Shown in pieces: positions 1 through 49,728 of a stretch of DNA of 50,892 bases. Source of the DNA: a virus. Location of the stretch: positions 1 to 50,892 of IMG/VR virus record IMGVR_UViG_3300021440_000033; one strand, written 5' to 3'. A model generated the notes under the pieces. The model saw only the letters and a list, made by a program, of their open reading frames with translations, made no database searches and had not been told where the DNA came from. Position 1 is the stretch's first letter; each line of letters starts with the position of its first letter. The position numbers were made by a program, and so were the translations under genes.

Positions 1-3000
1 ATGCTGCAGTAGGATTTGTAGTTGTTCCTACCGTTATGATCGTTTTGCTTACAGTTACTTGATTTCCAAGTGAAACATTCCCGCGAAGATATGTCGACGT
101 AATTGTGGTATGTCCTAAAACTACAGTATTGTCTGTAGTAGAATAAGCATCCTTTCCTATAACAATACAATTCTCGGCACTTGTTTTTTGACTTGCATTA
201 TCCCCAGCATTTACACCTATAAAAACACAAGAAAATCCAGTTGCAAGAACATATCCAGCTCTGTATCCAATTGCAACATTCATAGATCCTGCAGTTCCAG
301 ATGATCCATTAAGATTATTTAGTGCTCTTTCTCCAATACCAATATTCTGGAATCCATGTACAGAGATATCAAGACAATGATATCCTATTGCCATATTCTG
401 ATATCCATCCGTATTAAGGCTTAATGCTGCATGTCCTATTGCAAAATTACCTTCCCCACTTGTATTTGCTTTTAAAGCTTGATAACCAATACCAACGTTG
501 ATATTCCCGGTATTGTAGTATAATGCTTCATATCCTATAGCGATACAATAATTAACCGAGGTTCCTGTATATAAAGAACTTAATCCTATGGCAATATTAT
601 ATTCTCCACCAGAATTATTGTATAAAGTATTAGCACCAATACCAATATTTCCAGACTTAATTGTATTGGAATATAAAGATTTCCATCCTATTGCAGTATT
701 ATACGATCCAGTTGTATTGGAAAGTAAAGCTTGAAATCCTATTGATGTATTTGCAGCACCAGAAGTATTCGAAAACATACCTTGATATCCAATAGCAGTA
801 AGTTCTGAATAATCGTTATTGTAAAGAGCGTTATGCCCTATTGCTACACATCCATCTTGTCCTCCTGTTTTATATAAAGCTCTATCTCCAATAGCCACAC
901 AATAATTACCATTGGAAGCAGATACTAATGTTTCTCTTCCGATTGCAACATTATATTCGCCATTTGAAAGAACATAAAGAGACCTCCATCCAATACCAAT
1001 ATTATAACTTTTTGTAATATTTTGTTTTAAGACTTCAACTCCAATTGCAATACTATATGTTCCTGTTGTTGTGTTCAACATTGCCTGGGTACCAATAGAA
1101 ATATTTGGACCACCAGATGTTGTTACAGAAAATAGTCCCTGATACCCAATTGCAACATTATGAGATATCTGAGTAGCATTTTTTAAAGCCTCTCTTCCTA
1201 TGGCTATATCATATTGTCCAGACGTGAGACTCGTTAAAGCATCATCTCCTATTCCAATATTACTATTGTTCGTTAAAGTATAGTTTCCAGCTCTTCTTCC
1301 AAGAAAGGTGTTCCCGGTTCCATATGCATGGATCCATCGATTGGAAGCCATAAATATAGAGCCTTGCGTTCCTGCGGTAGGATTTGTAGTTTCTGGGATC
1401 TTAAAAGATTCCGACAACTCAAGTTGTCTGTCTGGTGTAAGGACATTGATTCCTATGAATCTACTATTGTATTCAAAAATAGGAGATACGGTAGGGCCTA
1501 TTGTTGTCGGAGAAGTATATTTTACCACATAGTTTGTTGTTCCTGATAACCCCATTTCCGGACCCTGAGGACCCATCATTGCCAAAGAAACAATCATTTG
1601 GTTTCCTGCAGTAAGTGTTCCACCAGAACTTAATGCTACAAGAGTATTAAATTCATGTGGATTTCCACTCCAGATATTTTTTGTGATATAAACTCCAAAG
1701 TTCGCGGGATTCTGATAGTCTTCAATTTTGATGACAGAACCTATTCCATATGCCTGTAACCATCCAGAAACAGTAACCCCATCTTTATCTTGCCAGTTAA
1801 GATGAATCTTTGTTACTATTGCTGGATTTGAGCTATCAGTATAGCATGTCCCTACCGAGTTCGCATTGGTTGCAGATAATTGCCATCTACGAGAGCTTGA
1901 GCCATAAAGACCATTAAATCCTTGATTACCCTGATTACCCTGGGCTCCCTGTGGACCTTGTGCTCCCTGTATCCCAGTTCCTCCTATAGGACCATCATTT
2001 CCTTGACGACCTTGAGCTCCCTGCATTCCCTGTGAGCCTTGATTTCCCTGTGCACCTACAGTACCTACAGAACCATCATTCCCTTGTCTCCCTTGGTTTC
2101 CTTGTGGACCACGTCTACCATCTCGCTGTATAGAAATAATATAATTATTTCCTAATGTAGGTGATCCTGACAATGAAGGAGTAGTAGCTGATTGGAATCT
2201 TGTATAAGTTCCAATATGAGTTGGTTGAGTATATGTTGACATAAAATAAATAGAAGGATTCCCAACCTCTTCTATTCTTATTATGACTTGTTGATTTGCA
2301 GACTGAGTATAGGTTGCAATATTGCTGTAATCATATCCATAAAGATCATAGTCACTAACATCCATTGCAGCAAGATCATTCCAGCTTGCATATCCACCAT
2401 TTGACCCTTGAAATTGTCCAGATCCTATTGTAGTTGGGTATGTTGAAGCAAGAGTCCATACTGATGTCCATGGAGCACTATGGCCTTGTAATCCTTGGTT
2501 TCCTTGATTTCCTTGGGGACCTTGAGTTCCTTGTGTGCCTTGAGCACCTTGTGTTCCATCAAATCCTTGTCTACCCTGATTTCCTTGAGCACCAGTAAAA
2601 CCCTGAACTCCAGTATTTCCTTGATTACCTTGTGTACCTTGTGAACCCTGAGGGCCTTGAATTCCTTGCCATCCTTGCGGCCCCTGATTTCCTTGTACGC
2701 CTGCAGATCCAGCAGAACCAGTATTTCCTTGATTTCCCTGCCAACCTTGAGTACCTTGCGCACCCTGTACTCCCTGATTACCTTGGTTTCCTTGGAATCC
2801 AGTTGCTCCCGTATTTCCTTGGTTACCTTGCCATCCTTGTGTACCCTGGGTACCCTGAATACCGGTATTCCCCTGGTTCCCTTGATTACCAATAGAACCA
2901 GTATCACCTACATTCCCCTGACGACCCTGATTACCTTGATTACCCTGCCAGCCCTGTGGTCCAGTAAGTCCTTGATTTCCTTGATTACCCTGGGTACCTT

Positions 3001-5614
3001 GAGTTCCTTGTGGACCTTGCACTCCAGCTCCAACGTTGCCTTGATTTCCCTGGTTTCCTTGGTTTCCTTGTAAACCAGTGTTTCCTTGATATCCTTGAGG
3101 CCCAAGAGGTCCAGTCAAGTTTCCATCAGTTCCTGTATTTCCTTGATTGCCCTGGCGACCTTGATTACCCTGAGGTCCTTGGACACCAGCGCCAACATTT
3201 CCTTGGTTACCTTGATTACCTTGATTACCCTGCAATCCATTGGTACCAGAAGTTCCAGTATCACCAATATTCCCTTGGTTCCCTTGATTTCCTTGCGAAC
3301 CTTGCGCACCCGTATCTCCAATAGGACCTTGTCTTCCCTGGTTACCCTGATTACCTTGATTGCCTTGATAACCTTGATTCCCTTGGTTTCCTTGAAAACC
3401 TGTAGTTCCTACGTTGCCCTGATTACCCTGAGTTCCTTGAGTTCCCTGGGCTCCTTGTATTCCTGTATTACCTTGATTCCCTTGATTACCAGAAGTACCT
3501 ATATTCCCTTGGTTACCCTGATTTCCCTGAGTTCCATTTGTTCCAGATGCTCCAATATTCCCTTGATTTCCCTGTGGGCCAGCAACTCCTTGATTACCTT
3601 GCCATCCCTGGGTTCCTTGTGTGCCCTGAACGCCTTGATTCCCTTGATTACCTTGATTACCATTTGTCCCAGTAGAACCTGTCAGTCCCTGGTTGCCTTG
3701 GTTACCTTGGTTTCCTTGCCATCCTTGAGTTCCCTGAGGTCCTTGGAATCCTTGGAATCCTCTTGATCCAGTTGGTCCGATATCTCCTTGATTGCCTTGA
3801 TTACCCTGAGAGCCATCAAGAGCGAGAGGTCCTTGGCGTCCTTGGTTTCCTTGAGTCCCTTGGACTCCTTGAGTACCTTGTGTTCCATCTATTCCTTGCC
3901 TTCCTTGATTACCTTGCCATCCTTGAGGACCAAGTGGACCAGTTAAGTTCCCATCAGCTCCGGTAAGACCCTGGTTCCCTTGTCGCCCTTGATTACCTTG
4001 TGTCCCCTGAGCACCTGTATTTCCCTGCGTTCCCTGCGCTCCTTGAGCACCTTGCATACCTTGAACACCTTGCCAACCTTGTAGTCCAGTAAGCCCCTGA
4101 TTGCCCTGATTACCTTGGGTCCCATCTATACCTTGACGACCTTGATTACCCTGTACTCCCTGGTTACCCTGAGCACCAAGATTCCCAGTTGCTCCAGATA
4201 ATCCTTGATTTCCTTGGTTACCCTGACTACCCTGAACCCCCTGTCGTCCCTGATTACCTTGTGAACCTTGAACACCCTGTGGACCAGTTAATCCTTGGTT
4301 ACCCTGGTTGCCTTGTACGCCTTGTACGCCTTGATTACCTTGAGGCCCAAGTGGACCAGTAAGATTACCGTCAGCACCCGTTAGTCCTTGATTGCCTTGT
4401 CTTCCTTGATTACCTTGAGAACCTTGTACTCCTTGCGTACCTTGCACACCTTGATTACCCTGAAGACCCGTAAATCCCTGATTTCCTTGAGGACCAGACA
4501 TTCCTTGATTACCTTGTGATCCTTGGGTCCCTTGGACCCCTTGGCGTCCTTGTAATCCAACTGCATCATTCCCTTGATTCCCTTGATTTCCAATACCTAT
4601 TGGACCTTGAAGACCTTGATATCCTTCTGTTCCTCCGTCGCCTTGTACTCCACTTGGGCCAGTAACTCCACGATTTCCTTCAAAACCTTGATATCCTTGC
4701 GGACCCCAAACACCCTGTCTTCCTTGATTTCCTTGGAATCCTTGTGGACCAGGAATACCTCCGTTAGGTCCTTGTGGTCCTTGTACTCCTGGACCAGGTC
4801 CCTGCGGACCTTGTATCCCAATTGCAGATGGTCCTTGTGGGCCAGCTCCTTCTCCACTTTTTGAGAAGATGATGATATAATCAAGACCATTACCAAAGTA
4901 GATAGAAGGACTTGAAGAGAGTGGTGTAAATTGGAAAAGTCTTCGGCCAAATGATTTTGTTCCTATTGTAGTAAGACGACCGGTAAGGACTTCTTCTGGT
5001 TTTCCCCAACGTTCAATTTGAATAAAGTCATTTGGCTCCCAGATATCAAGTAAAGGATCCTGGTCAACATTATCTGCATCAATATCGTGAATCTCTATCC
5101 AGATACAAGAAGACATAAGATAGTTGGATGGGCGAAAATAAGTTGCTCCACCTGTTCCATGACATACCCAGCGTCTTCCATTACCAGCATAATGACCATG
5201 TGTTCCCTGACGACCTTGATTTCCTTGAGGACCACCAGCAGGACCTGTAGCCCCAGTAATACTTACTCCCTGATATCCCTGAGGACCTTGCGGTCCCTGA
5301 ACTCCTTGAGAACCCTGAACCCCTTCATCTCCCTTATCATTGAGAGTAAGGAGATCGTTTCCTACAAATACCCAGCCTTTACCAGACCAGTAAATGTGAT
5401 CACCTTCAACCCAAGTAGTTCCAGTATTTGTTCTAGTAGCATTGTTGTCCGTAACTGTTGTTACGGCAATTCTATAATGCCAACCTGTAATGACTTCCTT
5501 AGCCCTGGGAAACCCAAGACTACTGCTTATGCTTCCTCGATCTAAGAGCCCTAATCTCTGCTCATCTACTCCGATCCAGGACCTTTGATAACTTAATCTT
5601 TTAGGACCAGACAT
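1..5614 (-). CDS. Giant collagen-like tail-fibre protein with AIG-type head repeats (partial)
   Basis: The reading frame starts at ATG 5614 and runs off the left edge, giving at least 1,871 codons; codon register was checked at five separated points and agrees. Layout: N-terminal globular part to about residue 110; a short Gly-X-Y block; a globular insert (about 160-250); a Gly-X-Gln-rich collagen-like block of roughly 790 residues (about 255-1045) dominated by QGN, QGT and QGV triplets; a globular insert; a second short collagen block (about 1165-1225); a globular part (about 1230-1430); then about 23 copies of an 18-23-residue repeat with core N-x-A-I-G-x-x-A-L. Such proteins are trimeric phage fibres. 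The hydroxyproline-type Pro is almost absent and Gln fills the Y position. The motif TTNPTA occurs before the repeats and again at the left edge. A C-terminal intramolecular chaperone may lie outside the window. Confidence 0.85.
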   Translation of the reverse strand, partial: MSGPKRLSYQRSWIGVDEQRLGLLDRGSISSSLGFPRAKEVITGWHYRIAVTTVTDNNATRTNTGTTWVEGDHIYWSGKGWVFVGNDLLTLNDKGDEGVQGSQGVQGPQGPQGYQGVSITGATGPAGGPQGNQGRQGTHGHYAGNGRRWVCHGTGGATYFRPSNYLMSSCIWIEIHDIDADNVDQDPLLDIWEPNDFIQIERWGKPEEVLTGRLTTIGTKSFGRRLFQFTPLSSSPSIYFGNGLDYIIIFSKSGEGAGPQGPSAIGIQGPQGPGPGVQGPQGPNGGIPGPQGFQGNQGRQGVWGPQGYQGFEGNRGVTGPSGVQGDGGTEGYQGLQGPIGIGNQGNQGNDAVGLQGRQGVQGTQGSQGNQGMSGPQGNQGFTGLQGNQGVQGTQGVQGSQGNQGRQGNQGLTGADGNLTGPLGPQGNQGVQGVQGNQGNQGLTGPQGVQGSQGNQGRQGVQGSQGNQGNQGLSGATGNLGAQGNQGVQGNQGRQGIDGTQGNQGNQGLTGLQGWQGVQGMQGAQGAQGTQGNTGAQGTQGNQGRQGNQGLTGADGNLTGPLGPQGWQGNQGRQGIDGTQGTQGVQGTQGNQGRQGPLALDGSQGNQGNQGDIGPTGSRGFQGFQGPQGTQGWQGNQGNQGNQGLTGSTGTNGNQGNQGNQGVQGTQGTQGWQGNQGVAGPQGNQGNIGASGTNGTQGNQGNQGNIGTSGNQGNQGNTGIQGAQGTQGTQGNQGNVGTTGFQGNQGNQGYQGNQGNQGNQGRQGPIGDTGAQGSQGNQGNQGNIGDTGTSGTNGLQGNQGNQGNQGNVGAGVQGPQGNQGRQGNQGNTGTDGNLTGPLGPQGYQGNTGLQGNQGNQGNQGNVGAGVQGPQGTQGTQGNQGNQGLTGPQGWQGNQGNQGRQGNVGDTGSIGNQGNQGNTGIQGTQGTQGWQGNQGNTGATGFQGNQGNQGVQGAQGTQGWQGNQGNTGSAGSAGVQGNQGPQGWQGIQGPQGSQGTQGNQGNTGVQGFTGAQGNQGRQGFDGTQGAQGTQGTQGPQGNQGNQGLQGHSAPWTSVWTLASTYPTTIGSGQFQGSNGGYASWNDLAAMDVSDYDLYGYDYSNIATYTQSANQQVIIRIEEVGNPSIYFMSTYTQPTHIGTYTRFQSATTPSLSGSPTLGNNYIISIQRDGRRGPQGNQGRQGNDGSVGTVGAQGNQGSQGMQGAQGRQGNDGPIGGTGIQGAQGPQGAQGNQGNQGFNGLYGSSSRRWQLSATNANSVGTCYTDSSNPAIVTKIHLNWQDKDGVTVSGWLQAYGIGSVIKIEDYQNPANFGVYITKNIWSGNPHEFNTLVALSSGGTLTAGNQMIVSLAMMGPQGPEMGLSGTTNYVVKYTSPTTIGPTVSPIFEYNSRFIGINVLTPDRQLELSESFKIPETTNPTAGTQGSIFMASNRWIHAYGTGNTFLGRRAGNYTLTNNSNIGIGDDALTSLTSGQYDIAIGREALKNATQISHNVAIGYQGLFSVTTSGGPNISIGTQAMLNTTTGTYSIAIGVEVLKQNITKSYNIGIGWRSLYVLSNGEYNVAIGRETLVSASNGNYCVAIGDRALYKTGGQDGCVAIGHNALYNNDYSELTAIGYQGMFSNTSGAANTSIGFQALLSNTTGSYNTAIGWKSLYSNTIKSGNIGIGANTLYNNSGGEYNIAIGLSSLYTGTSVNYCIAIGYEALYYNTGNINVGIGYQALKANTSGEGNFAIGHAALSLNTDGYQNMAIGYHCLDISVHGFQNIGIGERALNNLNGSSGTAGSMNVAIGYRAGYVLATGFSCVFIGVNAGDNASQKTSAENCIVIGKDAYSTTDNTVVLGHTTITSTYLRGNVSLGNQVTVSKTIITVGTTTNPTAA

Positions 5615-5626
5615 AGGACTAGACTA

Positions 5627-6691
5627 TTAAATGATTACTTCTCTCCAGACAAAATTTAAAACGATTTCTCCTCCAGGACTTCCTCCAGATTGAGAATAGT
5701 TATCAGCTTGAGCAACGATACTATATCCAGGAGACGTATTAAGTAAATTCCCTGATGGATGAATCACATCAACTCTAACTACAGGACTTTCCATAAATCC
5801 TTTTTCAAATTCACAAATATCAGAAGATTGTCCTGCTACTCGAATATTAAGAGCAGTTCCAGACCATGTTCCAGCATAATTTTTCATGTTTTTTCCTACA
5901 ATACTAAGAAGATCAACATAAGCAGATGAGTCTGGAGTAATGATAGCAATTTCTCCACTGATTGTATTCTTAAGCATGTAGGTAGTAAGAGTAAAAGTAC
6001 CTACTTTGAATTCTGATGTATTTGATGGACCCTGTACTCCCTGGGCACCAACTGAGTTAGATCCCTGGGGACCTTGAACTCCGTCTGCGCCTGTTGTACC
6101 TTGACGCCCCTGGAAACCCTGCCATCCTTGAGGACCTTCTACGTTGTAGTTGATATTGAATGCCTTTCTGTATGTCACCCCGTTATAGACATAACGCGCT
6201 TCATACTGAGCACTTGTAGAACCGAGATCAAAGGGATCAATAGAAGAGGTAAAGTTCGTTCTCTTTCCATAAAGGCCAGGTCCTTCTGCAGACTCTGAGT
6301 GATTAAGCTCCGGACCATCAAGATGTACAATCGTTGCGATTGCTGAATTGAAAGAAATTCCTGAGATGTCTTGCTCTATTCCATTGACCCAAAAGCGGAT
6401 TACAGTATTTGCGTGGTTCCAGTCATTTCCATTTCCTGTATAAGATGCTGGTACCCATAAGGTATCATCATCTACTGTAAGATAGTTTGGAAGTGATCCC
6501 TGATTACCTTGAGTTCCAAATGATCCTTGCGGACCTTGACTTCCTTGATTTCCCTGACTTCCCTCAAGTCCCTGTGGTCCCTGAGGACCTTGGTAACCCA
6601 TAGGGCCAGAGTAGTATGGGAGCGTCTCTATAGACGAACAGTTACAACTTCCTGCAACTCCATGTAACTTCCCGCATTTTGTACAAGCCAT
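5627..6691 (-). CDS. Collagen-like fibre or fibre-adaptor protein
   Basis: A 354-aa protein starting MACTKCGKLHG. It has two Cys pairs in the first 20 residues (CTKC and CNC), a Gly-X-Gln collagen-like stretch at about 30-65, a beta-rich globular part, a second collagen-like stretch at about 190-225 and a C-terminal globular domain ending WREVII. It sits 12 bp upstream of the giant fibre gene in the same leftward operon and shares its QGPQG/QGNQG triplets. A role as a shorter fibre or as the piece joining the giant fibre to the virion is inference. The N-terminal cysteines could bind a metal or cross-link the trimer. Confidence 0.75.
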   Translation of the reverse strand: MACTKCGKLHGVAGSCNCSSIETLPYYSGPMGYQGPQGPQGLEGSQGNQGSQGPQGSFGTQGNQGSLPNYLTVDDDTLWVPASYTGNGNDWNHANTVIRFWVNGIEQDISGISFNSAIATIVHLDGPELNHSESAEGPGLYGKRTNFTSSIDPFDLGSTSAQYEARYVYNGVTYRKAFNINYNVEGPQGWQGFQGRQGTTGADGVQGPQGSNSVGAQGVQGPSNTSEFKVGTFTLTTYMLKNTISGEIAIITPDSSAYVDLLSIVGKNMKNYAGTWSGTALNIRVAGQSSDICEFEKGFMESPVVRVDVIHPSGNLLNTSPGYSIVAQADNYSQSGGSPGGEIVLNFVWREVII

Positions 6692-20030: not shown

Positions 20031-20339
20031 TCACACAAAACCATGCCGCCTTACCTTATTACTATCCTTACCAAAATCTACCCAGTAAACAACCCGTAAC
20101 CCAACAACACTCTCATCACCTTCCCTATGCCTGTTAACAGTCGTCACAGATAAACCCTCCTCACGACATAAATCAGCCAAACTATTATAGCCCCGTAACC
20201 TACCCCCATCCCATATCAACACCTTTCTCACTATAATGGTTTGTTTGTCCCGAGCAAAATAACCACTTTTAACCCCACAAAGCAAATAATAACCAAATTT
20301 ATTATCAACACTAATCCCATACCATATATATAGTATCAC
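20031..20339 (-). CDS. Small protein with NUMOD1-like DNA-binding pattern
   Basis: The recognisable part is the C-terminal 60 residues: a strand, then GYNSLADLCREEGLS-VTTVNRH, which reads like the helix-turn-helix of NUMOD1-type modules in phage proteins (Y.sl.elc...gls..tv.rh). The first 35 residues are Tyr-rich and overlap a degenerate copy of the control-region repeat, so the true start may lie downstream, possibly at a GTG near residue 37. As the first leftward gene of the divergent junction it could be a regulator; that is inference. Confidence 0.45.
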   Translation of the reverse strand: MILYIWYGISVDNKFGYYLLCGVKSGYFARDKQTIIVRKVLIWDGGRLRGYNSLADLCREEGLSVTTVNRHREGDESVVGLRVVYWVDFGKDSNKVRRHGFV

Positions 20340-20345
20340 CCCTAC

Positions 20346-20413
20346 CCCTATACCATATATATAAACTCATAAGGTACCTCCCCTATAATATATATGCGAG
20401 ATCATAAGGTACC
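20346..20413. repeat. Two tandem 33-bp repeats in the divergent control region
   Basis: Units at 20346-20378 and 20381-20413 share CCCTATA at one end and TCATAAGGTACC at the other, separated by a 14-bp A/T-rich middle. A degenerate third copy (CCCATACCATATATATAG) starts at 20316. Period is about 35 bp, close to three to three and a half helical turns. Placed between divergent operons, these are good candidates for operator or phage-specific promoter elements. Confidence 0.7.
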
Positions 20414-20493
20414 CCACATAAACATAACGCTTCGCTGGCATGCGCCAGGTGCGGTGGGGGGTTCCCACTACCGGAGGTGCAAACCAAACTATT
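20414..20493 (+). promoter_or_regulatory. Hairpin-rich leader of the first rightward gene
   Basis: Two short hairpins lie here: CTGGC/GCCAG at 20435-20448 and a G-rich stem at 20452-20473 closed by TGGG/CCCA and CGG/CCG. GGAGGT follows at 20473-20478, a strong Shine-Dalgarno-like sequence unusual for this window, but 15 nt from the ATG at 20494, which is long. The leader probably controls translation or stability of a highly expressed early message. Confidence 0.45.
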
Positions 20494-29959: not shown

Positions 29960-31243
29960 ATGAAATACCTTAAAATCAGCAATGCTGGAGAAATTGAGAA
30001 TGCTGCTCTTTATCTCCTCGCATCAACGAAACGCGGACAGTCTGGAAAGATTGGACAGTTCGGATCAGGCAACAAGTATCAATTGTGCTTCTTTGCCAGA
30101 AATCACTATGATTATAAAGTCTTTGCGGGTACCCGGGAAATCGAGATATCTACAGTTCCTACCCAGTTAAGAGACCAAACAGTAAATGTCATCTACATTG
30201 ACGGAAAAGAAACATCCCTGACTGATCAGATGGGTCCCTCCTGGAAGTTATGGCAAGCAATCAGAGAAATCTATTGCAATGCCATTGATGAAGGAGGGCA
30301 GCGTATCGAAGTTGTTGATGAAATCGTTCCTGTTCATGGAGAGACGCAATTCTACATAGGCTTTAATGCTAGTATCCAAGATTTTATGGACAATTTCCAT
30401 CAGTATTTTGCCAACGATGAAGATGTCATATTCTCCTGTTCTGTAGGACGTATTCTTCGTAAAAGAGGAGACAAGAGAGCCAATATCTATCGTAAAGGTA
30501 TTAAGTGCTATGATGCCAGTAAAGACAGTGTGTTCGATTATGATCTGTATGATATCGAAATAAACGAGTCTCGGACCATTGAACGTGACTGGCAACTCTA
30601 TGAAGGGATCTGGAAGCTCATTCAAAGTTGTACGGATGAAGAGATTATCTTCCAAATCTTTAGCAAACTCCTTAAGGATGATGTTCTCGAAGGAGAGACA
30701 GGATTCTTGTGTACTCTTCGTAATACCTTCTTTCAGTCTGAAGAGTTTAAAAGGTTCCTATCTGAACGCAGAATCATTCCAATCACTTACGCGTCTTTCT
30801 TGACTGTCGAAGAACTCGCAAACTATATTGTAATTCCCCAAAAGATCTATAGTGAGTTTAAGATCCAAATTAAGAAGGATAAAGTATTTGATGACGTAAA
30901 ATCAAAAGGCAATGTTCTATATCGTACAGTAATACCAAGCCCAATGATTGAAGCCACTCTTAATCGTGCTCTAGAGTTCTTTAAAGAGTGTGATCTTGAA
31001 ATTCCATATGATATCCAGGTTGCTAAATTCGAAGATCGCAAAATATATGGAACTACTGATGATAATATTATCGTGCTATCTGATATTGGTATTGAAAGAG
31101 GAATTCAAGAAACGATAGATAGCATCATCGAGGAGTACATTCATATCAAATACAATTGCTTTGACAAGACCCGGGAAATGCAATCAGCCATTATCCGTGA
31201 ATGGATCGGGTACATGAAGAAGAAGAATACCTATCTGATATGA
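29960..31243 (+). CDS. GHKL-like ATPase-type protein with degenerate peptidase-like C-terminus
   Basis: A 427-aa protein, the largest in the early block. Residues 32-40 (GQFGSGNKY) look like a GHKL G2 loop and residues 102-112 (REIYCNAIDEG; E103, N107, D110) look like the N-box, but the order is G2 then N-box, the reverse of HSP90, MutL or histidine kinases, which suggests circular permutation. The C-terminal part has SIIEEYIHIKYNCFDKTRE, resembling an HExxH-type helix in which the first His is replaced. This combination matches a family of phage proteins I recognise as GHKL-like, function unknown. It is coupled by ATGA to the next gene. Confidence 0.65.
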   Translation: MKYLKISNAGEIENAALYLLASTKRGQSGKIGQFGSGNKYQLCFFARNHYDYKVFAGTREIEISTVPTQLRDQTVNVIYIDGKETSLTDQMGPSWKLWQAIREIYCNAIDEGGQRIEVVDEIVPVHGETQFYIGFNASIQDFMDNFHQYFANDEDVIFSCSVGRILRKRGDKRANIYRKGIKCYDASKDSVFDYDLYDIEINESRTIERDWQLYEGIWKLIQSCTDEEIIFQIFSKLLKDDVLEGETGFLCTLRNTFFQSEEFKRFLSERRIIPITYASFLTVEELANYIVIPQKIYSEFKIQIKKDKVFDDVKSKGNVLYRTVIPSPMIEATLNRALEFFKECDLEIPYDIQVAKFEDRKIYGTTDDNIIVLSDIGIERGIQETIDSIIEEYIHIKYNCFDKTREMQSAIIREWIGYMKKKNTYLI

Positions 31244-37900: not shown

Positions 37901-38283
37901 TGGACCATACTTTTGACGAAATATGGGAATTGAATCCGAATGGAGATAAGGAAAGAACTCGATCTACATTCAACGCATCCTGCATGTTTGACCATACATT
38001 AACATCAGACCTCCTATATGCATCGTATAGGAGCTATCTTAATTATTGGCAAACAAAGTTCGGAGACAGAGAGCTTAAATACGTGGCCGCTAAAGACCAA
38101 CTAAGGCCGCTGATAGACTTTATCGACGAACGATTATACCACAACGTTTACAGAATCCCAAGAAACAACAGAGATACCTACTTATATGGAAACGAAAAAT
38201 CGGAAGACTTGGCAAAATACTTCGAGGATTTTAAACGACTGGAACCAACTTGGAAAGCTTCCACCGAACGACATCAAGATTGA
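37900..38283 (+). CDS. Hypothetical protein (127 aa)
   Basis: A 127-aa helical protein starting MDHTFDEIWELNPNGD. It overlaps the helicase gene by 98 bp in a different frame, which is long even for this phage. It could be a helicase-associated or loader protein, judged only from position. Confidence 0.5.
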   Translation: MDHTFDEIWELNPNGDKERTRSTFNASCMFDHTLTSDLLYASYRSYLNYWQTKFGDRELKYVAAKDQLRPLIDFIDERLYHNVYRIPRNNRDTYLYGNEKSEDLAKYFEDFKRLEPTWKASTERHQD

Positions 38284-39607
38284 GGAGGGTCTTATTTCTA
38301 CCCTCATCAATTATCCGACATCCATATTTCAGATCATCAACAACTTCAAGCCAGAACATTTCTATAACCAACGATGTCAACTCTTGGCTCAGACAATACT
38401 TCATTGTGTAGAGCACGGAATTCCCATTGATCTCATCTCTATCTGCCATGAAGCAAGAGTTCTCGATCTTCAGGATTTAATAGGCGTCAATGCTAGCCCT
38501 GAATACGAGATTAGCAGGATAGTAAGCACGTACTCTTCCCAAGCTATGCTGGAATATTATCATAAGATTCTATTTCAGCTGTTCCTGAAGCGTCAGTTTA
38601 TTATTCTCGGTAACGAGATGCAGACAATGGGTTATGACATCACCACAGACATCTTTGACATCATTGATGAAACTATAGAAAAGATCAATAAATATGGAGA
38701 ATTTTTTATCAACGAAGACAAACAGCACATGGAGAGCGTTTCCGGGAACACTATTGATGCTATCGTCTCTCAACAGACAGACCCAATATCATTACATAAG
38801 ACTGACATCATCAAAGTGGATGCTCTTATTCAGTTTCGTGCTGATGAGATAATCCTTATGGGAGGAAAGTCAGGATCAGGAAAGACCAAGTTCATCATCT
38901 TATTAATGTCTCAGTTGCTTAAAAGTAACCCAGACGTTTCTCTTTGTTGGTATGCGATGGAGGATCCCCCAGATAAGATTACCAGGGCGTTTATCTCCCA
39001 AGCCACACATTTAAGTGATTCCCAGTTGCTGGGCAATGATTATGTCATTGACCCAGAGATTATCTCTATGATCGTCGATCTCAAGAAGAACCTGTTTGAC
39101 ACATGGGATATTGAGTTCGTTAACAGACCATCCAGGATAACACACATAAAAAGACATTTCGAGCAATTCGTAAAGCATCGCCCAGGAAGACTGTGCCTGC
39201 TAATTATTGACAATATCATGCTCATTGAAGACAACTTCGACAATGATGCACAAACCAAAATTGATGATAAGATCGCTGGAGAGGTCAAGAAGATCTCCAT
39301 CTTAACCCATCAACCTATTATACTGGTTCATCACTTTACCGATGCCCAGTTAGAGAAAAGTAATCTGAGTTCGGCCTATAGACCACGGGAATCAAATCTT
39401 AAGGGCTCAACTCGGTATAGAGATATCTCTACTCAGATCATTTTATGGAACAATCCAGCTCAGTATCCAGATCTCATCGAACAATATAAGGATTCTCCCT
39501 GGTTAGATGCAATGTTCATTGCTGATGTAACCAAGAATCGTAATAATAAGACAGGTATCATCCGATTTTTCGGGAACCTGGCAACCAATAATTTCTATAC
39601 AATTTGA
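38186..39607 (+). CDS. Replicative DNA helicase, DnaB family
   Basis: A 473-aa protein with the DnaB N-domain signature KLPPNDIKIEEGLISTLINY near the start, then a linker and RecA-like core: Walker A GGKSGSGKT at about 226-234, Walker B LCLLIIDN near 335-342, then HHFTDAQLEKSN and a PRESNLKGSTRYRD segment typical of DnaB motif H4. Unwinds DNA at the replication fork. No later in-frame ATG precedes the N-domain, so the ATG at 38186 is kept despite overlapping the upstream gene by 98 bp. Confidence 0.85.
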   Translation: METKNRKTWQNTSRILNDWNQLGKLPPNDIKIEEGLISTLINYPTSIFQIINNFKPEHFYNQRCQLLAQTILHCVEHGIPIDLISICHEARVLDLQDLIGVNASPEYEISRIVSTYSSQAMLEYYHKILFQLFLKRQFIILGNEMQTMGYDITTDIFDIIDETIEKINKYGEFFINEDKQHMESVSGNTIDAIVSQQTDPISLHKTDIIKVDALIQFRADEIILMGGKSGSGKTKFIILLMSQLLKSNPDVSLCWYAMEDPPDKITRAFISQATHLSDSQLLGNDYVIDPEIISMIVDLKKNLFDTWDIEFVNRPSRITHIKRHFEQFVKHRPGRLCLLIIDNIMLIEDNFDNDAQTKIDDKIAGEVKKISILTHQPIILVHHFTDAQLEKSNLSSAYRPRESNLKGSTRYRDISTQIILWNNPAQYPDLIEQYKDSPWLDAMFIADVTKNRNNKTGIIRFFGNLATNNFYTI

Positions 39608-43481: not shown

Positions 43482-43507
43482 TATTTTTGTATCTCAATCC
43501 CCCTATA

Positions 43508-43756
43508 ATGACTGATTTTGAACGAGGTATGCGCCAGGGATTCCTGGACCTCCTTAAACTTTACAACGCCCGTCTTTATGAACTTCAGGGTAAACTATAT
43601 CATTCAACTACCATTCCTTGTCAACTTGGCCTCACTGGAAAAATCAATGAGGTCAAGTCTATTATTAAAACCCTCGAATATCAAAAAAATGAATTACAGA
43701 AAGGAAACTACGAAACACCAACTAAAGGAGCAACTCTTCCCCCTGGATGCCAGTAA
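43508..43756 (+). CDS. Helical protein (82 aa)
   Basis: Start at MTDFERGMRQGFLDLL (43508); an upstream TTG at 43487 is less likely. A helical hairpin (FLDLLKLYNARLYELQGKL, then KSIIKTLEYQKNELQ) with no catalytic signal. Overlaps the DnaA-domain gene by 68 bp, which is long. Confidence 0.5.
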   Translation: MTDFERGMRQGFLDLLKLYNARLYELQGKLYHSTTIPCQLGLTGKINEVKSIIKTLEYQKNELQKGNYETPTKGATLPPGCQ

Positions 43757-44096
43757 TAGTTTTGCTTATGTCTTGCCCGGGATAACAGTAGTACGTAATC
43801 CTAACATCTCTCACATCATACAGTATGTTGCCAAATTACAACATGTGACCGTGGAAGAGATGATGGGCGAAGATAGACATCAGGAATTTGTAGATGGGCG
43901 TAAGCTAGTAAGCCTATTCGCATCTGATCATAGGTTCCTAAATATGTCCTTAAGAATTGTGGGAGAACTCTTCAAACCTTTTAAGGATCATGCTACTGTT
44001 CTTCATGCAAAACGTTCGGCTTGGATCTTAATTGAAACAAATCATGTATTTCGTGAAAAATATCTTGCCGTAAAAGATTATTTCTTTATATCTTAG
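43689..44096 (+). CDS. Stand-alone DnaA domain IV-like protein (origin binding)
   Basis: A 135-aa protein starting MNYRKETTKHQLKEQL (43689). Residues 38-112 match DnaA domain IV: HVTVEEMMGEDRHQEFVDGR in the helix-turn-helix region, MSLRIVGELF, and the signature KDHATVLHA at 99-107 (RDHTTVLHA in bacterial DnaA). The AAA+ core is absent. The protein should bind DnaA-box-like sites without ATPase activity. Neighbours (helicase, SSB-like, HNH) suggest origin recognition, or sequestration of host origin sites. An alternative is a MarR-like or other HTH. Confidence 0.7.
   Translation: MNYRKETTKHQLKEQLFPLDASNSFAYVLPGITVVRNPNISHIIQYVAKLQHVTVEEMMGEDRHQEFVDGRKLVSLFASDHRFLNMSLRIVGELFKPFKDHATVLHAKRSAWILIETNHVFREKYLAVKDYFFIS
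44065..44096 (+). promoter_or_regulatory. Possible Bacteroidota-type promoter for the SSB-like gene
   Basis: TTG at 44065-44067, then a 21-nt spacer and TATCTTAG at 44089-44096, similar to but weaker than the TAnnTTTG -7 box. It lies in the end of the DnaA-domain gene, 20 bp upstream of the ATG at 44117. Confidence 0.35.
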
Positions 44097-44116: not shown

Positions 44117-44530
44117 ATGTACCTATTTGGAAGACTAAACAAGGTATGGGTGATCTCTAAAGAATACAAGGGAGAGACCTACAATACTTACAAAATGAAT
44201 GTCAATATTGACGCTAAAGTTGATGTTGACGTGGAGTTAATGAAGGGTCAGTACGACGTGCTATCCGTCAGGGCAACACCTGGAACTATTATCAAATTCA
44301 ATTATGTCCTGGCTGGAAGAAACTATGAAAAGGACGGAGAATTACGAAATATGACCTGGGCTAAATGTACAGAGATATCTGTTGAACTCTCGGAAGTTTC
44401 TGTCTCTTCTTATGTAGGCGTAGGACAAGAGCCTCCAATGAAGCATACTCCTAATCAGGGATTGCCAATGGATGAAGGGCCAAGGCCTCCAAGGATTCCT
44501 CTAGAACAAGACGATGATCTTCCATTTTAA
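44117..44530 (+). CDS. DUF3127/SSB-like protein with an acidic SSB-type tail
   Basis: A 137-aa protein. Residues 1-100 show an OB-like strand series (MYLFGRLNKVWVISKEYKGE, NYVLAGRNYEKDGE) as in DUF3127 proteins, which replace or assist SSB in Bacteroidota phages. A Pro-rich linker ends with DDDLPF, the acidic tip that SSBs use to recruit partners. Probably binds ssDNA at the replication fork. Its stop overlaps the next ATG. Confidence 0.65.
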   Translation: MYLFGRLNKVWVISKEYKGETYNTYKMNVNIDAKVDVDVELMKGQYDVLSVRATPGTIIKFNYVLAGRNYEKDGELRNMTWAKCTEISVELSEVSVSSYVGVGQEPPMKHTPNQGLPMDEGPRPPRIPLEQDDDLPF

Positions 44531-45234
44531 TGAAACCCAGGAAGCCAATTAATAAGGTATCTACCAAACAGAAGATACGCAATACGGACCTTAAAGTAAT
44601 CAAAAGTGAAATCATCAGAGACCAACAATCTATCTGCTACTGTTGCGAGACCAAGCAAGTATTGGATGGAGCCCATATTATACGGAGAACAGCCAATCTG
44701 GAGTTCTATGTGGATAGGCGCAATCTCGTGGGCTTATGCCGCAGATGCCACGTACTATTTGACGATGGACCTCTTGTTCAGTTCTTAAAGCTCCCTAATA
44801 GCGAGAAAATCCTTCAGAGAATGAAGGAGCTTGATGAACTATACTTTAACCGTTACCTTGATTTATCTAAAAGTATGACAGCACAAATAATTTTTATTAC
44901 CCAGTATCGAAAGATAGCACCGGGGACTCTTTTTAACGCAGAAATACACCAATTCTCTGATAAATTAGGATTCCAGGCCTTTTCGATACAAGGACATGAT
45001 GGACACCACTTCCATATCGGCAGGGTGGATGTTCGAGAAATCTTTGATATTATCCAATTTGTCAATAGTGACGAAGCAGAATCATTCAGACTACGGTACC
45101 AGGATTTTATTCCTCACGATCTTAAAATATGCTATTCCTTGCCTCATGATGATGTTGCTCCTAATGAAGGGTATGACGAAATTGTGTCTGATGAAGCAAT
45201 TATAATTTCTGAAGAAGAAGATCTTCCATTATGA
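44530..45234 (+). CDS. HNH endonuclease-like protein with acidic tail
   Basis: A 234-aa protein. Zinc-binding C36-x2-C39 and C70-x2-C73 frame the HNH motif: H49 in DGAHII, N65 in RRNLVGLC and H74 in CRRCHVLFDD. The basic N-terminus (KPRKPINKVSTKQKIR) binds DNA. The domain ends by about residue 90; the remaining 140 residues have no recognised motif and finish EEEDLPL, similar to the DDDLPF tail of the SSB-like protein upstream. HNH nucleases nick or cut DNA in packaging, recombination or homing. Coupled by ATGA to the next gene. Confidence 0.7.
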   Translation: MKPRKPINKVSTKQKIRNTDLKVIKSEIIRDQQSICYCCETKQVLDGAHIIRRTANLEFYVDRRNLVGLCRRCHVLFDDGPLVQFLKLPNSEKILQRMKELDELYFNRYLDLSKSMTAQIIFITQYRKIAPGTLFNAEIHQFSDKLGFQAFSIQGHDGHHFHIGRVDVREIFDIIQFVNSDEAESFRLRYQDFIPHDLKICYSLPHDDVAPNEGYDEIVSDEAIIISEEEDLPL

Positions 45235-45932
45235 TAGTAGACGTAGTAATGCTTAGTGATGGTAAGACTCTAGAACTAAGACAAATGACACAAAACGCCA
45301 TTGACAGTATTCATGCAAGCAATTGCTCCGGTATTGTCTTTAATGTCACAGTATTTGAGAAGCAGTTCGGCATAGCTCCTAGCGGACAGACTGTTGTTTT
45401 TGTATGCCCTGAATTAGGACAATATGCTGGATATTTTAGAGCTACTACGTATCTTCAAGTAGGAGAATTTAACTACAATCGGTACATGAACGAAGGGACC
45501 AGGATGGGGTCAGCTGAATGGGTTGTCTGGGCCAATAATGACATTCGTGCAGAGAATGATTTCATGTCTCACATCATCTATGCAAGTGATCTTCTCGGGA
45601 TAAGTTCCTGGTGTTGTTACGATCCTAAATGTCATGATAAGCAGTATCCTTTAGAAAATCGTCCAGCAACAGATGAGGGGTTTACTATTAGGAGACAGAT
45701 ATGTGGATGGTTTATTGTAGCTCGCAGAATCATCTGGGATATCATTGGAGGACTTGATGAATCTCATTCTTTCTGGTATTCAGATAACTCTTACGCCGAA
45801 CAGCTTCAGAGATACAATTTCAGACATGCTCTTAACTTGGAAGCAGTTGTAAAGCATCTACATTCCAAGACCCTATTCACACTACCACTAGAACAGCAAC
45901 TTAAATTTACAGAAGGAACAATCCCAGAATGA
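45231..45932 (+). CDS. Glycosyltransferase-like protein 1 (GT-A type)
   Basis: A 233-aa protein with a Rossmann-like start (VDVVMLSD), NYNRYMNEGTRMG and the acceptor or nucleotide region WVVWANNDIRAEND, where NND replaces the usual DxD. GWFIVARRIIWDIIGGLDE followed by FWYSDN is the GT2 layout. It transfers a sugar from a nucleotide sugar to an acceptor that sequence alone does not reveal. Starts within the end of the HNH gene (ATGA). Confidence 0.65.
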   Translation: MIVDVVMLSDGKTLELRQMTQNAIDSIHASNCSGIVFNVTVFEKQFGIAPSGQTVVFVCPELGQYAGYFRATTYLQVGEFNYNRYMNEGTRMGSAEWVVWANNDIRAENDFMSHIIYASDLLGISSWCCYDPKCHDKQYPLENRPATDEGFTIRRQICGWFIVARRIIWDIIGGLDESHSFWYSDNSYAEQLQRYNFRHALNLEAVVKHLHSKTLFTLPLEQQLKFTEGTIPE

Positions 45933-46129
45933 GCACAAAAGTTTCATCTCTACTCAAGGTAGAGGATCATATTATCGAAGTCTCCGTGGAGGAGAACGAA
46001 ATGTACCAACCAGCTTATCGTCTTATCATTTCTACATCAGGAAAAGAAGAAGAGGTAGAGGTTGTAATGACCAAGGAAGAGGTACGTATTTTACATGACA
46101 TGCTAAAGTTAGCATTTAACACCCAATAA
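45929..46129 (+). CDS. Small acidic protein (66 aa)
   Basis: A 66-aa protein starting MSTKVSSLLKVEDHIIEVSV, with two acidic strands and a helix (KEEVRILHDMLKLAF). Coupled by ATGA to the glycosyltransferase gene. Not recognised. Confidence 0.5.
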   Translation: MSTKVSSLLKVEDHIIEVSVEENEMYQPAYRLIISTSGKEEEVEVVMTKEEVRILHDMLKLAFNTQ

Positions 46130-46131
46130 TT

Positions 46132-46347
46132 ATGTATACAATAGTAATCAAGAGAACTGGAAAACAATACATGGCCTCCATTATGAATGGAGTAGAGATC
46201 GTGTGGACTTCTGAAGCAAGAAAGAACCGCAAAGATGTCTGGAAAACTGCCATCAATACAATCAAAAAAATGCATGGAGCCAAGATTGATGACCAGACAG
46301 GTCTAAAACTTCCTCCAGGAATAAATGCTGCTGAGTATGCAAAATAA
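46132..46347 (+). CDS. DUF1508-like protein (71 aa)
   Basis: MYTIVIKRTGKQYMAS, NGVEIVWTSEA and KTAINTIKKMHGAK resemble the DUF1508 layout (strand, G-x-Y, N-G-x-x-I-x-x-S-E, helix). Such proteins are small and of unknown role. Overlaps the next gene by 11 bp. Confidence 0.45.
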   Translation: MYTIVIKRTGKQYMASIMNGVEIVWTSEARKNRKDVWKTAINTIKKMHGAKIDDQTGLKLPPGINAAEYAK

Positions 46348-47200
46348 AGAGCTATTTATTGGGACGGTAACTTATGGAGATCGCTGGCAGTATCTCAATG
46401 AAACCATTCAGTCTTTTATGGAGAATACCGATCTCTCCTATCTGAATTGGAAATGGATCATCTATGGAAATAATCCCAGTCCTGACTCAATGCGCTACCT
46501 CAGAGAGTTAGAAGACTTGGATAAGCGATTCTATGTCGTTCTCGATCCCAACAACATTGGAATAGGCCCAGCTATGGACTGGATCAGGAATCACATCATA
46601 AAGATGTCTTATGACTTTAATTCAGGGTCTTTTGATCTGAATACTCCTCTTCCGTATCTATTCCTGGAAGATGACTGGGTGTGTCTGCCAAGCAAGCTCA
46701 CTGGAGTAAAAGACACTTGGCTAAATTCTGCCGTCGATCAGATGATGGAGAAGAACATAGACATCGTATATTTCAGACGCTATGTAGACATCTTTGACGC
46801 CAAGAAGCATTTCTGGCATGATAAACGCCAGGAATATACTTTCGCTCCTGAACCAAGAGATGTTTACTTTGATGGAATGAGATGCATTCGCTTGAACCCT
46901 ACCTTCTGGAATAATCCTCATCTTATGAATCTTCGCGCTTCCTATGATATCTACCCGCTTGTCCGGGAAGATAGAATTGGAGTGGCTGAGACCAAAGACT
47001 CGACTACCTGGGGAGCTTCAGAAAACCAAGCTACGTTCAGAGTTACCAATGGCCCAATGAAAGCTTATTATGCTTTCAATGGAATCTTTGCGCACTATGA
47101 TTATCTCTTGTATCATTACAAGACCGAGAACAACCGGTTTGTCTATGATCATGAGTTCGATAAAAACCAGTATAATTATATTTCAAATTGTGGATTATGA
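46337..47200 (+). CDS. Glycosyltransferase-like protein 2 (GT-A, family 2)
   Basis: Start at MQNKELFIGTVTYGDRW (46337). Rossmann start IGTVTYGDRW, GNNPSPDS, NNIGIGPAMDW, and LFLEDDW at about 114-120 as the metal-binding DxD-like motif. The C-terminal half is aromatic and His-rich. Probably inverts or retains a sugar from a nucleotide donor. Part of a group of three glycosyltransferases (45231, 46337, 47682). Confidence 0.7.
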   Translation: MQNKELFIGTVTYGDRWQYLNETIQSFMENTDLSYLNWKWIIYGNNPSPDSMRYLRELEDLDKRFYVVLDPNNIGIGPAMDWIRNHIIKMSYDFNSGSFDLNTPLPYLFLEDDWVCLPSKLTGVKDTWLNSAVDQMMEKNIDIVYFRRYVDIFDAKKHFWHDKRQEYTFAPEPRDVYFDGMRCIRLNPTFWNNPHLMNLRASYDIYPLVREDRIGVAETKDSTTWGASENQATFRVTNGPMKAYYAFNGIFAHYDYLLYHYKTENNRFVYDHEFDKNQYNYISNCGL

Positions 47201-47685
47201 AAGATCAACAGTTAAGGACAGTACTTGGGATTTTAGCAGAGGAGGCTCCTCTAAATGGAAAGCCTTTTGTTGATGAAATTCGAACAAGAGTAACCTCTAT
47301 TCTTGACGAAATCAATCACGATAGAGTTTGCATAATTGGAACTCATGTAAAAGATCTTCAAGGTCAGTATATAAGTTTCCAAGGATATCCTTCCTATAAA
47401 GGAACTATTCTTCAAAGACTCGAATTACTTGAGAAGAAACAGGAAGTAGATCGGGATACTATTTCTTCTGCTCAGAATCATATCAACAGATTAGTAGGAG
47501 ATGTTGAGGCCTATAAGACTATGGTCAATGAAAACAATGTTCTGCTTAGGAAATCTGTTGAACTCATGAATAAGCAGGGAGAGGAGATTAATATCCTCAC
47601 CAAAAAACTTGATTGTCTTCTTGATTATTCTGATCTCAAAATTGAGTGGAAAGAAGGGCACTATGAAGTGGAGGATAAAGTATGA
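47197..47685 (+). CDS. Coiled-coil protein (162 aa)
   Basis: Start at MKDQQLRTVLGILAEEAP (47197). A short globular part is followed by a long heptad-rich region from about 70 to 145 (ILQRLELLEKKQEVDRDT, then LRKSVELMNKQGEEINIL). It sits between two glycosyltransferase genes and is coupled by ATGA to the second. A scaffold for the transferases is one possibility. Confidence 0.55.
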   Translation: MKDQQLRTVLGILAEEAPLNGKPFVDEIRTRVTSILDEINHDRVCIIGTHVKDLQGQYISFQGYPSYKGTILQRLELLEKKQEVDRDTISSAQNHINRLVGDVEAYKTMVNENNVLLRKSVELMNKQGEEINILTKKLDCLLDYSDLKIEWKEGHYEVEDKV

Positions 47686-48311
47686 AACTGATATTCGTAA
47701 CACCATGTTCTCGGGTATTTAATCTACCCCTTATCTGCAACGAACTTGAGAACATGAGAGGACTTGATTGGGAATGGGTAATCATTCTTGACAAGGCTGC
47801 ACCCGAATATTTTGCTGCAGAAAGAATTATCTCTAATCTTCCTACCGATTCAAGACTCCATATCTTACGTCCAGACATCACCAAGAGCTTCGTAGGCCAC
47901 TCTCTTCGTAATGTAGCTTTAGAATATATTGAGAAGACTATTTTAGAACCTCACTATATTTATCAACTTGATGATGATACTATTCCTCATGAAGACTTTG
48001 ATTTGCTATCCCGTATTCTCAATGATTACTACCCAAAGACTATTGTCTTCAACCAGGCATATAGAGATGGAGGATTACGTTTGTTTGTAGATATAGTTCC
48101 TGTCTTTGGTAGATGTGATACTGGAACATTCCTAGTCTCTCGTCATCATGCCCAAGGATTACGTTACAACGAAAATGAGTATGCAGGAGACTACCTCTAT
48201 ATTAAAGAACTCTACGATAAATTCCCGGATTTTGTCAAACCTACTGAAGACAAGCTTGGGTACTATAATTGGATTACTGACGAAGACTTAACATTTAACA
48301 GACGATCATAA
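47682..48311 (+). CDS. Glycosyltransferase-like protein 3 (GT-A type)
   Basis: A 209-aa protein: VTPCSRVFNLPLICNEL start, WVIILDKAAPEYF, YQLDDDTIPHEDF at about 87-100 as DxD motif, and DTGTFLVSRHHAQGLRYNE. The layout matches small GT2 enzymes. Coupled by ATGA upstream and sharing one base with the next gene. Confidence 0.7.
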   Translation: MKLIFVTPCSRVFNLPLICNELENMRGLDWEWVIILDKAAPEYFAAERIISNLPTDSRLHILRPDITKSFVGHSLRNVALEYIEKTILEPHYIYQLDDDTIPHEDFDLLSRILNDYYPKTIVFNQAYRDGGLRLFVDIVPVFGRCDTGTFLVSRHHAQGLRYNENEYAGDYLYIKELYDKFPDFVKPTEDKLGYYNWITDEDLTFNRRS

Positions 48312-49017: not shown

Positions 49018-49728
49018 ATGTCAGAAAAACAAAATCTGATCCAAGTCGGTCCAGGGACTCAAGTACTGGAAATTAGAGAAGGCGCAGCCTCTATTATTCG
49101 TGAACCAAGGAATATCGACATCACCGGTGCTATCGGGACTGTCGTTGAATGGCTCACCAAGAGAGCAGCAACCCATGATCTCAAAAGAACCCATATCCTG
49201 GTAGACAGGGAGGGTATGGCTATCAATCTCATTCTCGATGAGACAAACTATTCTACCACTGAAGTTCGCGGTGGCCTGACTGTACATCCTATCCTGGCTA
49301 CTTTCGGAATCAACTCATCCAAATACAGGACGGCATTCCAAATGGCCGAGTTCTTTAAGATGAATCGTTTCTGGTTCGAGAACAAACAGGTTGCCATGGA
49401 ACTCATCACTCAACTGATGGGATTCAAAGCAAAGGTGGATAAAGAAGTTGAGAAACTCGAAGGAAACCGCGGAGACCGCAGACACTTGGTAGAACAAGTT
49501 GTGAAGACCAACGTTCCAGAGAAATTCAATCTCCTGGTTCCTATCTTCAAAGGCGGGAAACGTCAGCTGATCGAGGTAGAGATCTACTTCAACCCAGACG
49601 ACATGACTTGCTGCCTGGTATCTCCAGTTCTCAACGAAGAGATCCTGAAAGCTGTCGATGAGAAAGTCGATGCTGAATTGGTACAGGTTCGTAAGAACTG
49701 GCCAGAAATTGCCATCGTTGAGGTATAG
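49018..49728 (+). CDS. Conserved phage protein (236 aa), probably DNA metabolism
   Basis: A 236-aa protein: REGAASIIREPRNIDITG, HILVDREGMAINLIL, KYRTAFQMAEFFKMNRFWF, LITQLMGFKAKVDKE, then LEGNRGDRRHLVEQVV and a strand-rich C-terminus FNLLVPIFKGGKRQLIE. I recognise the layout as a conserved family in Bacteroidota phages, without known function. The ordered K-Y-R-T-x-x-x-M-A-E-x-F-K-M and N-R-G-D-R segments are the best markers. Confidence 0.6.
   Translation: MSEKQNLIQVGPGTQVLEIREGAASIIREPRNIDITGAIGTVVEWLTKRAATHDLKRTHILVDREGMAINLILDETNYSTTEVRGGLTVHPILATFGINSSKYRTAFQMAEFFKMNRFWFENKQVAMELITQLMGFKAKVDKEVEKLEGNRGDRRHLVEQVVKTNVPEKFNLLVPIFKGGKRQLIEVEIYFNPDDMTCCLVSPVLNEEILKAVDEKVDAELVQVRKNWPEIAIVEV

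Follow-up and report, generated by a model that had tools for sequence, protein, structure and literature searches.

A stand-alone DnaA domain IV protein in a crAss-like phage is a divergent member of a common phage protein type

What might a phage gain from the DNA-binding domain of DnaA when the ATPase core is missing? We asked this of an open reading frame (ORF) for a 135-aa protein in a viral stretch of 50,892 bases, a whole IMG/VR record and hereafter the window (Table 1). A preliminary description made from the sequence had called it a stand-alone DnaA domain IV protein without an ATPase core, and profile and structure evidence confirmed this. Pfam family Bac_DnaA_C (PF08299) matched residues 41–108 with E = 1e-9 and a score of 38.7 bits (curated cut-off 31.5 bits), and phmmer matched the DnaA structures 2hcb, 1l8q and 1j1v (E of about 6e-4 to 1e-3). 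The alignment to the DnaA model TIGR00362 covered the C-terminal 91 model positions only and scored 42.4 bits, against a cut-off of 343.9 bits for a full-length equivalog, and a profile search for the DnaA AAA+ domain III (PF00308) found no match in the whole record. The AlphaFold2 model, built on an alignment of 40 sequences, had a mean pLDDT of 82.9, with means of 92–98 in the ten-residue blocks from residue 41 onward. Its helices span residues 38–50, 55–58, 65–79, 88–92, 101–117 and 119–134, preceded by a poorly ordered N-terminal tail (pLDDT below 50 at residues 11–20 and 23–30). When this model was compared with the PDB by Foldseek, complexes of DnaA domain IV with DnaA-box DNA ranked first, 3pvp and 1j1v matching with probability 1.00, a target TM of 0.85–0.87 and an rmsd of 1.3–1.5; a fold unlike domain IV, named beforehand as a refuting outcome, did not appear. 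The exact start of the ORF is unsure because its first 68 nt overlap a small ORF that has no family match in Pfam or PHROG, an uncertainty that leaves domain IV untouched.

Table 1. Features of the DnaA domain IV locus, with positions in the window
Feature	Position	Strand	Basis or remark
DnaB-type replicative helicase	38186..39607	+	Pfam DnaB and DnaB_C above cut-off; phrog_19 E = 3e-36
Small ORF, 89 aa, other frame	43487..43756	+	ORF list and sequence; overlaps first 68 nt of the DnaA domain IV ORF
Stand-alone DnaA domain IV protein, 135 aa	43689..44096	+	PF08299 score, AlphaFold2 model, PDB fold matches 1j1v/3pvp
Tail motif NSFAYVLPGI, aa 23–32, in poorly ordered tail	43755..43784	+	Resembles NPF[VIA][IL]PG[IL] of Bacteroidota DnaA domain II; low pLDDT
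Folded domain IV, aa 37–135, six helices	43797..44093	+	AlphaFold2
Recognition-helix signature DHATVLHA, aa 100–107 (E. coli D433–A440)	43986..44009	+	phmmer alignment to 1j1v, family columns, host DnaA
137-aa protein, SSB-like acidic tail DDDLPF, SSB identity putative	44117..44530	+	Sequence
HNH endonuclease-like protein, acidic tail ending EEEDLPL	44530..45234	+	PHROG 7370/5956/589 HNH matches, E 1e-6 to 2e-5

The residues through which domain IV contacts DNA are largely retained. Aligned to E. coli DnaA, R63, R71, D100, H101, T103 and H106 of the 135-aa protein correspond to R399, R407, D433, H434, T436 and H439, with departures at Q408 (K), R401 (Q) and T435 (A), the last of which is also the form found in Rikenellaceae DnaA. 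In E. coli, it is R399 that reads TTA within the DnaA box (PMC5742627). Among the matches listed, this position is R in 67 of 68 nonredundant phage domains, an observation new here, and position 407 is R or K in 67 of 68; in the 135-aa protein both are R. Conservation at 399 and 407 is independent evidence because both columns lay outside the pattern used to search for relatives, whereas that of DHATVLHA is not, because the search fixed those columns. Bacteroidota host DnaA has in common with the 135-aa protein the domain IV fold and all six contact residues listed above; the phage protein differs in lacking domain I and the AAA+ domain III and in carrying K for Q408 and Q for R401. Our strongest inference is duplex DNA binding of the DnaA-box type, within a phage replication module.

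By its major capsid protein (MCP), the phage is crAss-like (Crassvirales). This protein showed 46–50% identity over 95% to MCPs of Suoliviridae crAss phages and qualifies as a crAss-type MCP, and the terminase showed 40–46% identity to those of two contigs from marine crAss-like relatives (L018 and L020). The host is apparently a member of the Bacteroidota. The record is probably a fragment, since the crAss-like genomes compared measure about 93–104 kb. A further contig, L007, has a structural block in common with the window (98% capsid-protein identity in the best segment) and gave no PF08299 match. The proteins encoded at 29960–31243 and 49018–49728 have relatives in non-crAss phages (Pseudomonas YuA-like phages; Bacteroides LoVEphage, DUF2303), and because of these the early region is mosaic; there is a residual chance that the record is a chimeric assembly.

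The preliminary description implied that a phage protein of this kind is rare, which did not hold up. A protein-level search of IMG/VR with the 135-aa sequence alone returned no relative, and the alignment made from mixed relatives proved too diverse for use as a query; a DNA pattern back-translated from DHATVLHA was used instead and matched at least 120 IMG/VR contigs. Among the matches listed, 118 of 123 genes read (including the window's own and three copies of Gundel_1) were stand-alone (<260 aa), one was long and four ran off the contig start; clustering at 70% identity left 69 nonredundant phage proteins from these matches. Three phage-collection matches (H1, H10 and H12) were rejected as stand-alone candidates, being full-length bacterial-type DnaA genes. 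BFVD has dozens of entries under 'DnaA C-terminal' from uncultured Caudovirales phages and also lists those of Tenacibaculum phage Gundel_1 (gp36) and Cellulophaga phage phi19:3 (gp013); in public phages and BFVD such proteins are already named DnaA-like. Like the 135-aa protein, they consist of about 100–190 aa with one domain IV, no AAA+ domain and replication-module neighbours, but they are only about 20–30% identical to it, their N- and C-terminal tails differ and most are without the tail motif described below. Among the PF08299 matches listed from 148 Bacteroidota genomes, all lie in open frames of at least 411 aa. Two matches occur in nine of the 148 (G005, G049, G084, G089, G095, G122, G130, G139 and G151), several of the listed second copies being in full-length frames. 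The 135-aa protein forms a very divergent branch, with a best identity of 34% to any row of the domain IV tree set, and the tree, which has too few columns and is poorly resolved, does not fix its nearest relative. It is a divergent member of an already known phage protein type, one that is common yet patchy among crAss-like phages: the gene is present in L018 and L020 and missing from eight reference crAss or crAss-related genomes. The literature on crAss phages and DnaA made no mention of the 135-aa protein. Stand-alone DnaA DNA-binding domains are thus widespread in phages, apparently those of Bacteroidota, and we came across no study of what such a domain does in the replication module of a phage.

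The preliminary description had named three neighbours in the window. The helicase is a real DnaB-type enzyme by Pfam, but it lies 4.1 kb upstream rather than beside the gene. The HNH protein was borne out by its PHROG matches. The SSB-like assignment of the 137-aa protein was not: its basis is size and the DDDLPF tail, and Pfam, PHROG, PDB and phage comparisons gave no match of note. The tails of the 137-aa and HNH proteins resemble each other, and the 3' ends of their two genes have a 24-nt repeat in common. No iteron-like repeats were found near the DnaA domain IV gene in the window.

The preliminary description had suggested that the protein may mark a phage origin, recruit the helicase or block host initiation by occupying DnaA boxes; of these, a role in replication draws its one line of support from the gene neighbourhood across many phages. 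We compared 142 proteins encoded on the same strand within 1 kb of 63 nonredundant viral copies, among the matches listed, with 140 proteins encoded 3.5–9 kb away. DUF3799 PDDEXK nucleases made up 14 of the 142 near proteins against two of the 140 far ones, and DnaB_C helicases eight against two, a contrast that the differing strand rule of the far set may inflate. The near set also holds primase, toprim, DEAD/ResIII and DNA polymerase A proteins. This placement of carrier-phage genes among helicase, primase and recombination genes is a pattern new here. In L018 and L020, the DnaA domain IV gene overlaps the end of a gene for about 630 aa, a probable DNA polymerase A as read from its sequence, and a helicase-like gene then follows. 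Four isolated phages, Gundel_1, phi19:3, Arctus_1 and N28_2, have an initiator-like gene (O-, DnaD- or DUF1376-like) no more than about 2 kb from the DnaA domain IV gene, and all but N28_2 also have a DnaC-like loader gene at that distance. Direct repeats lie inside the initiator-like gene of Gundel_1 (three copies, L002:6870-6936) and of phi19:3 (six, L009:7169-7240), which is the arrangement of lambda O. These repeats, in initiator-like genes adjoining DnaC-like genes, are candidate phage origins. Because such initiator-like genes carry their own internal repeats, the case for domain IV as the sole mark of an origin is weakened.

We also looked for the sites that a DnaA-type domain might bind, counting the box TTATCCACA with six Bacteroidota genomes as the positive control. 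Two of these had more than a two-fold excess (77 vs 35 and 55 vs 20), and the other four had little or none (13/22, 9/9, 50/39 and 42/53). The window contains no exact TTATCCACA and 19 sites with at most one mismatch against 17 expected, with no cluster beyond shuffles, and 45 carrier records contain 18 occurrences against 22 of the reversed-pattern control, for a box that is no reliable marker in these hosts. The box search therefore cannot decide the matter, because TTATCCACA is without clear excess in four of the six host-type genomes.

The N-terminal tail offers a second point of likeness to host DnaA, where a similar motif lies in the linker before domain III. Among the matches listed, 7 of the 69 nonredundant phage proteins have PG[ILMVF] ahead of domain IV, against a shuffle expectation of 0.46 (at most 4 in 500), and in those seven it always stands 64–70 residues before DHAT. 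In hosts, NPF[VIA][IL]PG[ILV] immediately precedes domain III in all 28 Rikenellaceae DnaA segments found, and the PG motif is present in 23 of 30 readable Bacteroidota DnaA proteins (20 of 27 without Rikenellaceae). Scanning 25 Bacteroidota genomes with an exact DNA version of the motif gave ten matches, eight of them at the expected distance upstream of a dnaA domain IV match. Across the Bacteroidota dnaA loci L215-L247, NPF[VIA][IL]PG[IL] forms a short conserved stretch within an otherwise variable domain II. For the 135-aa protein alone, the chance of PG[ILMVF] arising in the tail is an estimated few percent, and on the poorly resolved domain IV tree about five changes are required to explain the PG label. 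The strict motif NPFV.PG matched viral contigs in unrelated or improbable frames, none of them a replication protein. The likeness of the tail motif to that of Bacteroidota DnaA is new here, and we offer it as a lead, not a result. It raises the rather doubtful idea that a subset of these proteins, including ours, amounts to DnaA minus its ATPase, with domain IV and a short NPF.IPG[IL]-like motif. Such a protein would attach both to the sites of DnaA and to its partner, and in that way would divert host initiation or shut it down. If functional, the NPF.IPG[IL] motif of Bacteroidota DnaA points to a further partner of host initiation.

The fold, the conservation of residues that contact DNA, the missing AAA+ domain and the replication neighbourhood across carrier phages are computed results; which site is bound, which partner is contacted and which way the effect runs are inferred. 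The residue pattern and the neighbourhood are what may separate a replication factor from a host-replication blocker and from a GafY-type activator. Our ranking puts first, as a tentative preference, an accessory role in the module that initiates phage replication, played by binding duplex DNA in the manner of DnaA at its boxes. Domain IV would dock on a site resembling a DnaA box, probably one in the phage's own DNA, and the flexible N-terminal tail would contact a replication partner. Having no ATPase core, the 135-aa protein can neither form DnaA filaments nor open DNA, and strand opening and helicase loading would have to be supplied by other phage or host proteins. Several findings count against this proposal: there is no DnaA-box cluster in the window and no TTATCCACA excess in the 45 carriers, for a box of doubtful value in these hosts; the separate candidate initiators with gene-internal repeats in Gundel_1 and phi19:3 mean that the domain IV protein need not be the origin binder; eight reference genomes do without the gene; and the near/far contrast is perhaps inflated by the strand rule. 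The absence of a box excess from phage genomes is one point in favour of competition against host DnaA, which we place second and consider somewhat unlikely. At the host oriC, or at DnaA-controlled promoters, the protein would fill DnaA boxes without initiating, turning host replication off so that DnaB and other factors become available to the phage. The protein keeps recognition residues of the host type, down to the Rikenellaceae-type A at T435; a bound protein without AAA+ would be inactive; the neighbourhood implies expression alongside replication genes; and the PG motif held in common with host DnaA could add rivalry for a partner. The host target of such a competitor is nevertheless left undefined by canonical boxes that show no clear enrichment in four of six Bacteroidota genomes, and K for Q408 and Q for R401 also count against this reading.

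A role in transcription has the only experimental precedent that we found, and we rank it third, as unlikely. The stand-alone DnaA domain IV proteins that we found with experiments, GafY (formerly HdaB; PMC9632790) and the GafA N-terminus, activate transcription of alphaproteobacterial gene transfer agents (GTAs; PMC9632790, PMC9638019, PMC11150451). By analogy, domain IV of the phage protein might sit on phage promoters and bring or retain RNA polymerase. In GafY and GafA, too, the DNA-binding domain is like DnaA domain IV and either stands alone or is fused (PMC9632790, PMC9638019), but these proteins work with the sigma-like GafZ or a C-terminal half, and GafA has E8 in the place of R399 (PMC9638019), the residue that is R in all but one of the phage domains listed. 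The sigma-like family PF08281 had no match in the window and none above the cut-off in 38 carrier records including it, a search that a GafZ outside the Pfam model or in a missing part of a genome could escape. The neighbours, too, are replication and recombination genes. Regulation in the manner of GafY loses weight because no sigma-like partner passed the cut-off in the 38 carriers and R399 is retained. That the gene is instead a decayed or neutral fragment captured from a host, with no function, would suit its very divergent branch and best identity of 34%, but the intact predicted fold, the contact residues kept throughout a phage family that is both large and diverse and the recurrent neighbourhood indicate selection and make this very improbable.

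Elsewhere in the window, a structural block running leftward and an early block running rightward diverge at 20297–20440, a switch close to the minimum of GC skew. Imperfect tandem repeats of 35 bp and 31 bp occur there, and the stretch is a candidate origin or promoter region. Collagen-like 9-bp repeats (Gly-X-Gln type) recur in long runs on the minus strand at 1901–6691, probably in tail-fibre genes, and two or three glycosyltransferase-like genes occupy 45231–48311 in the early region.
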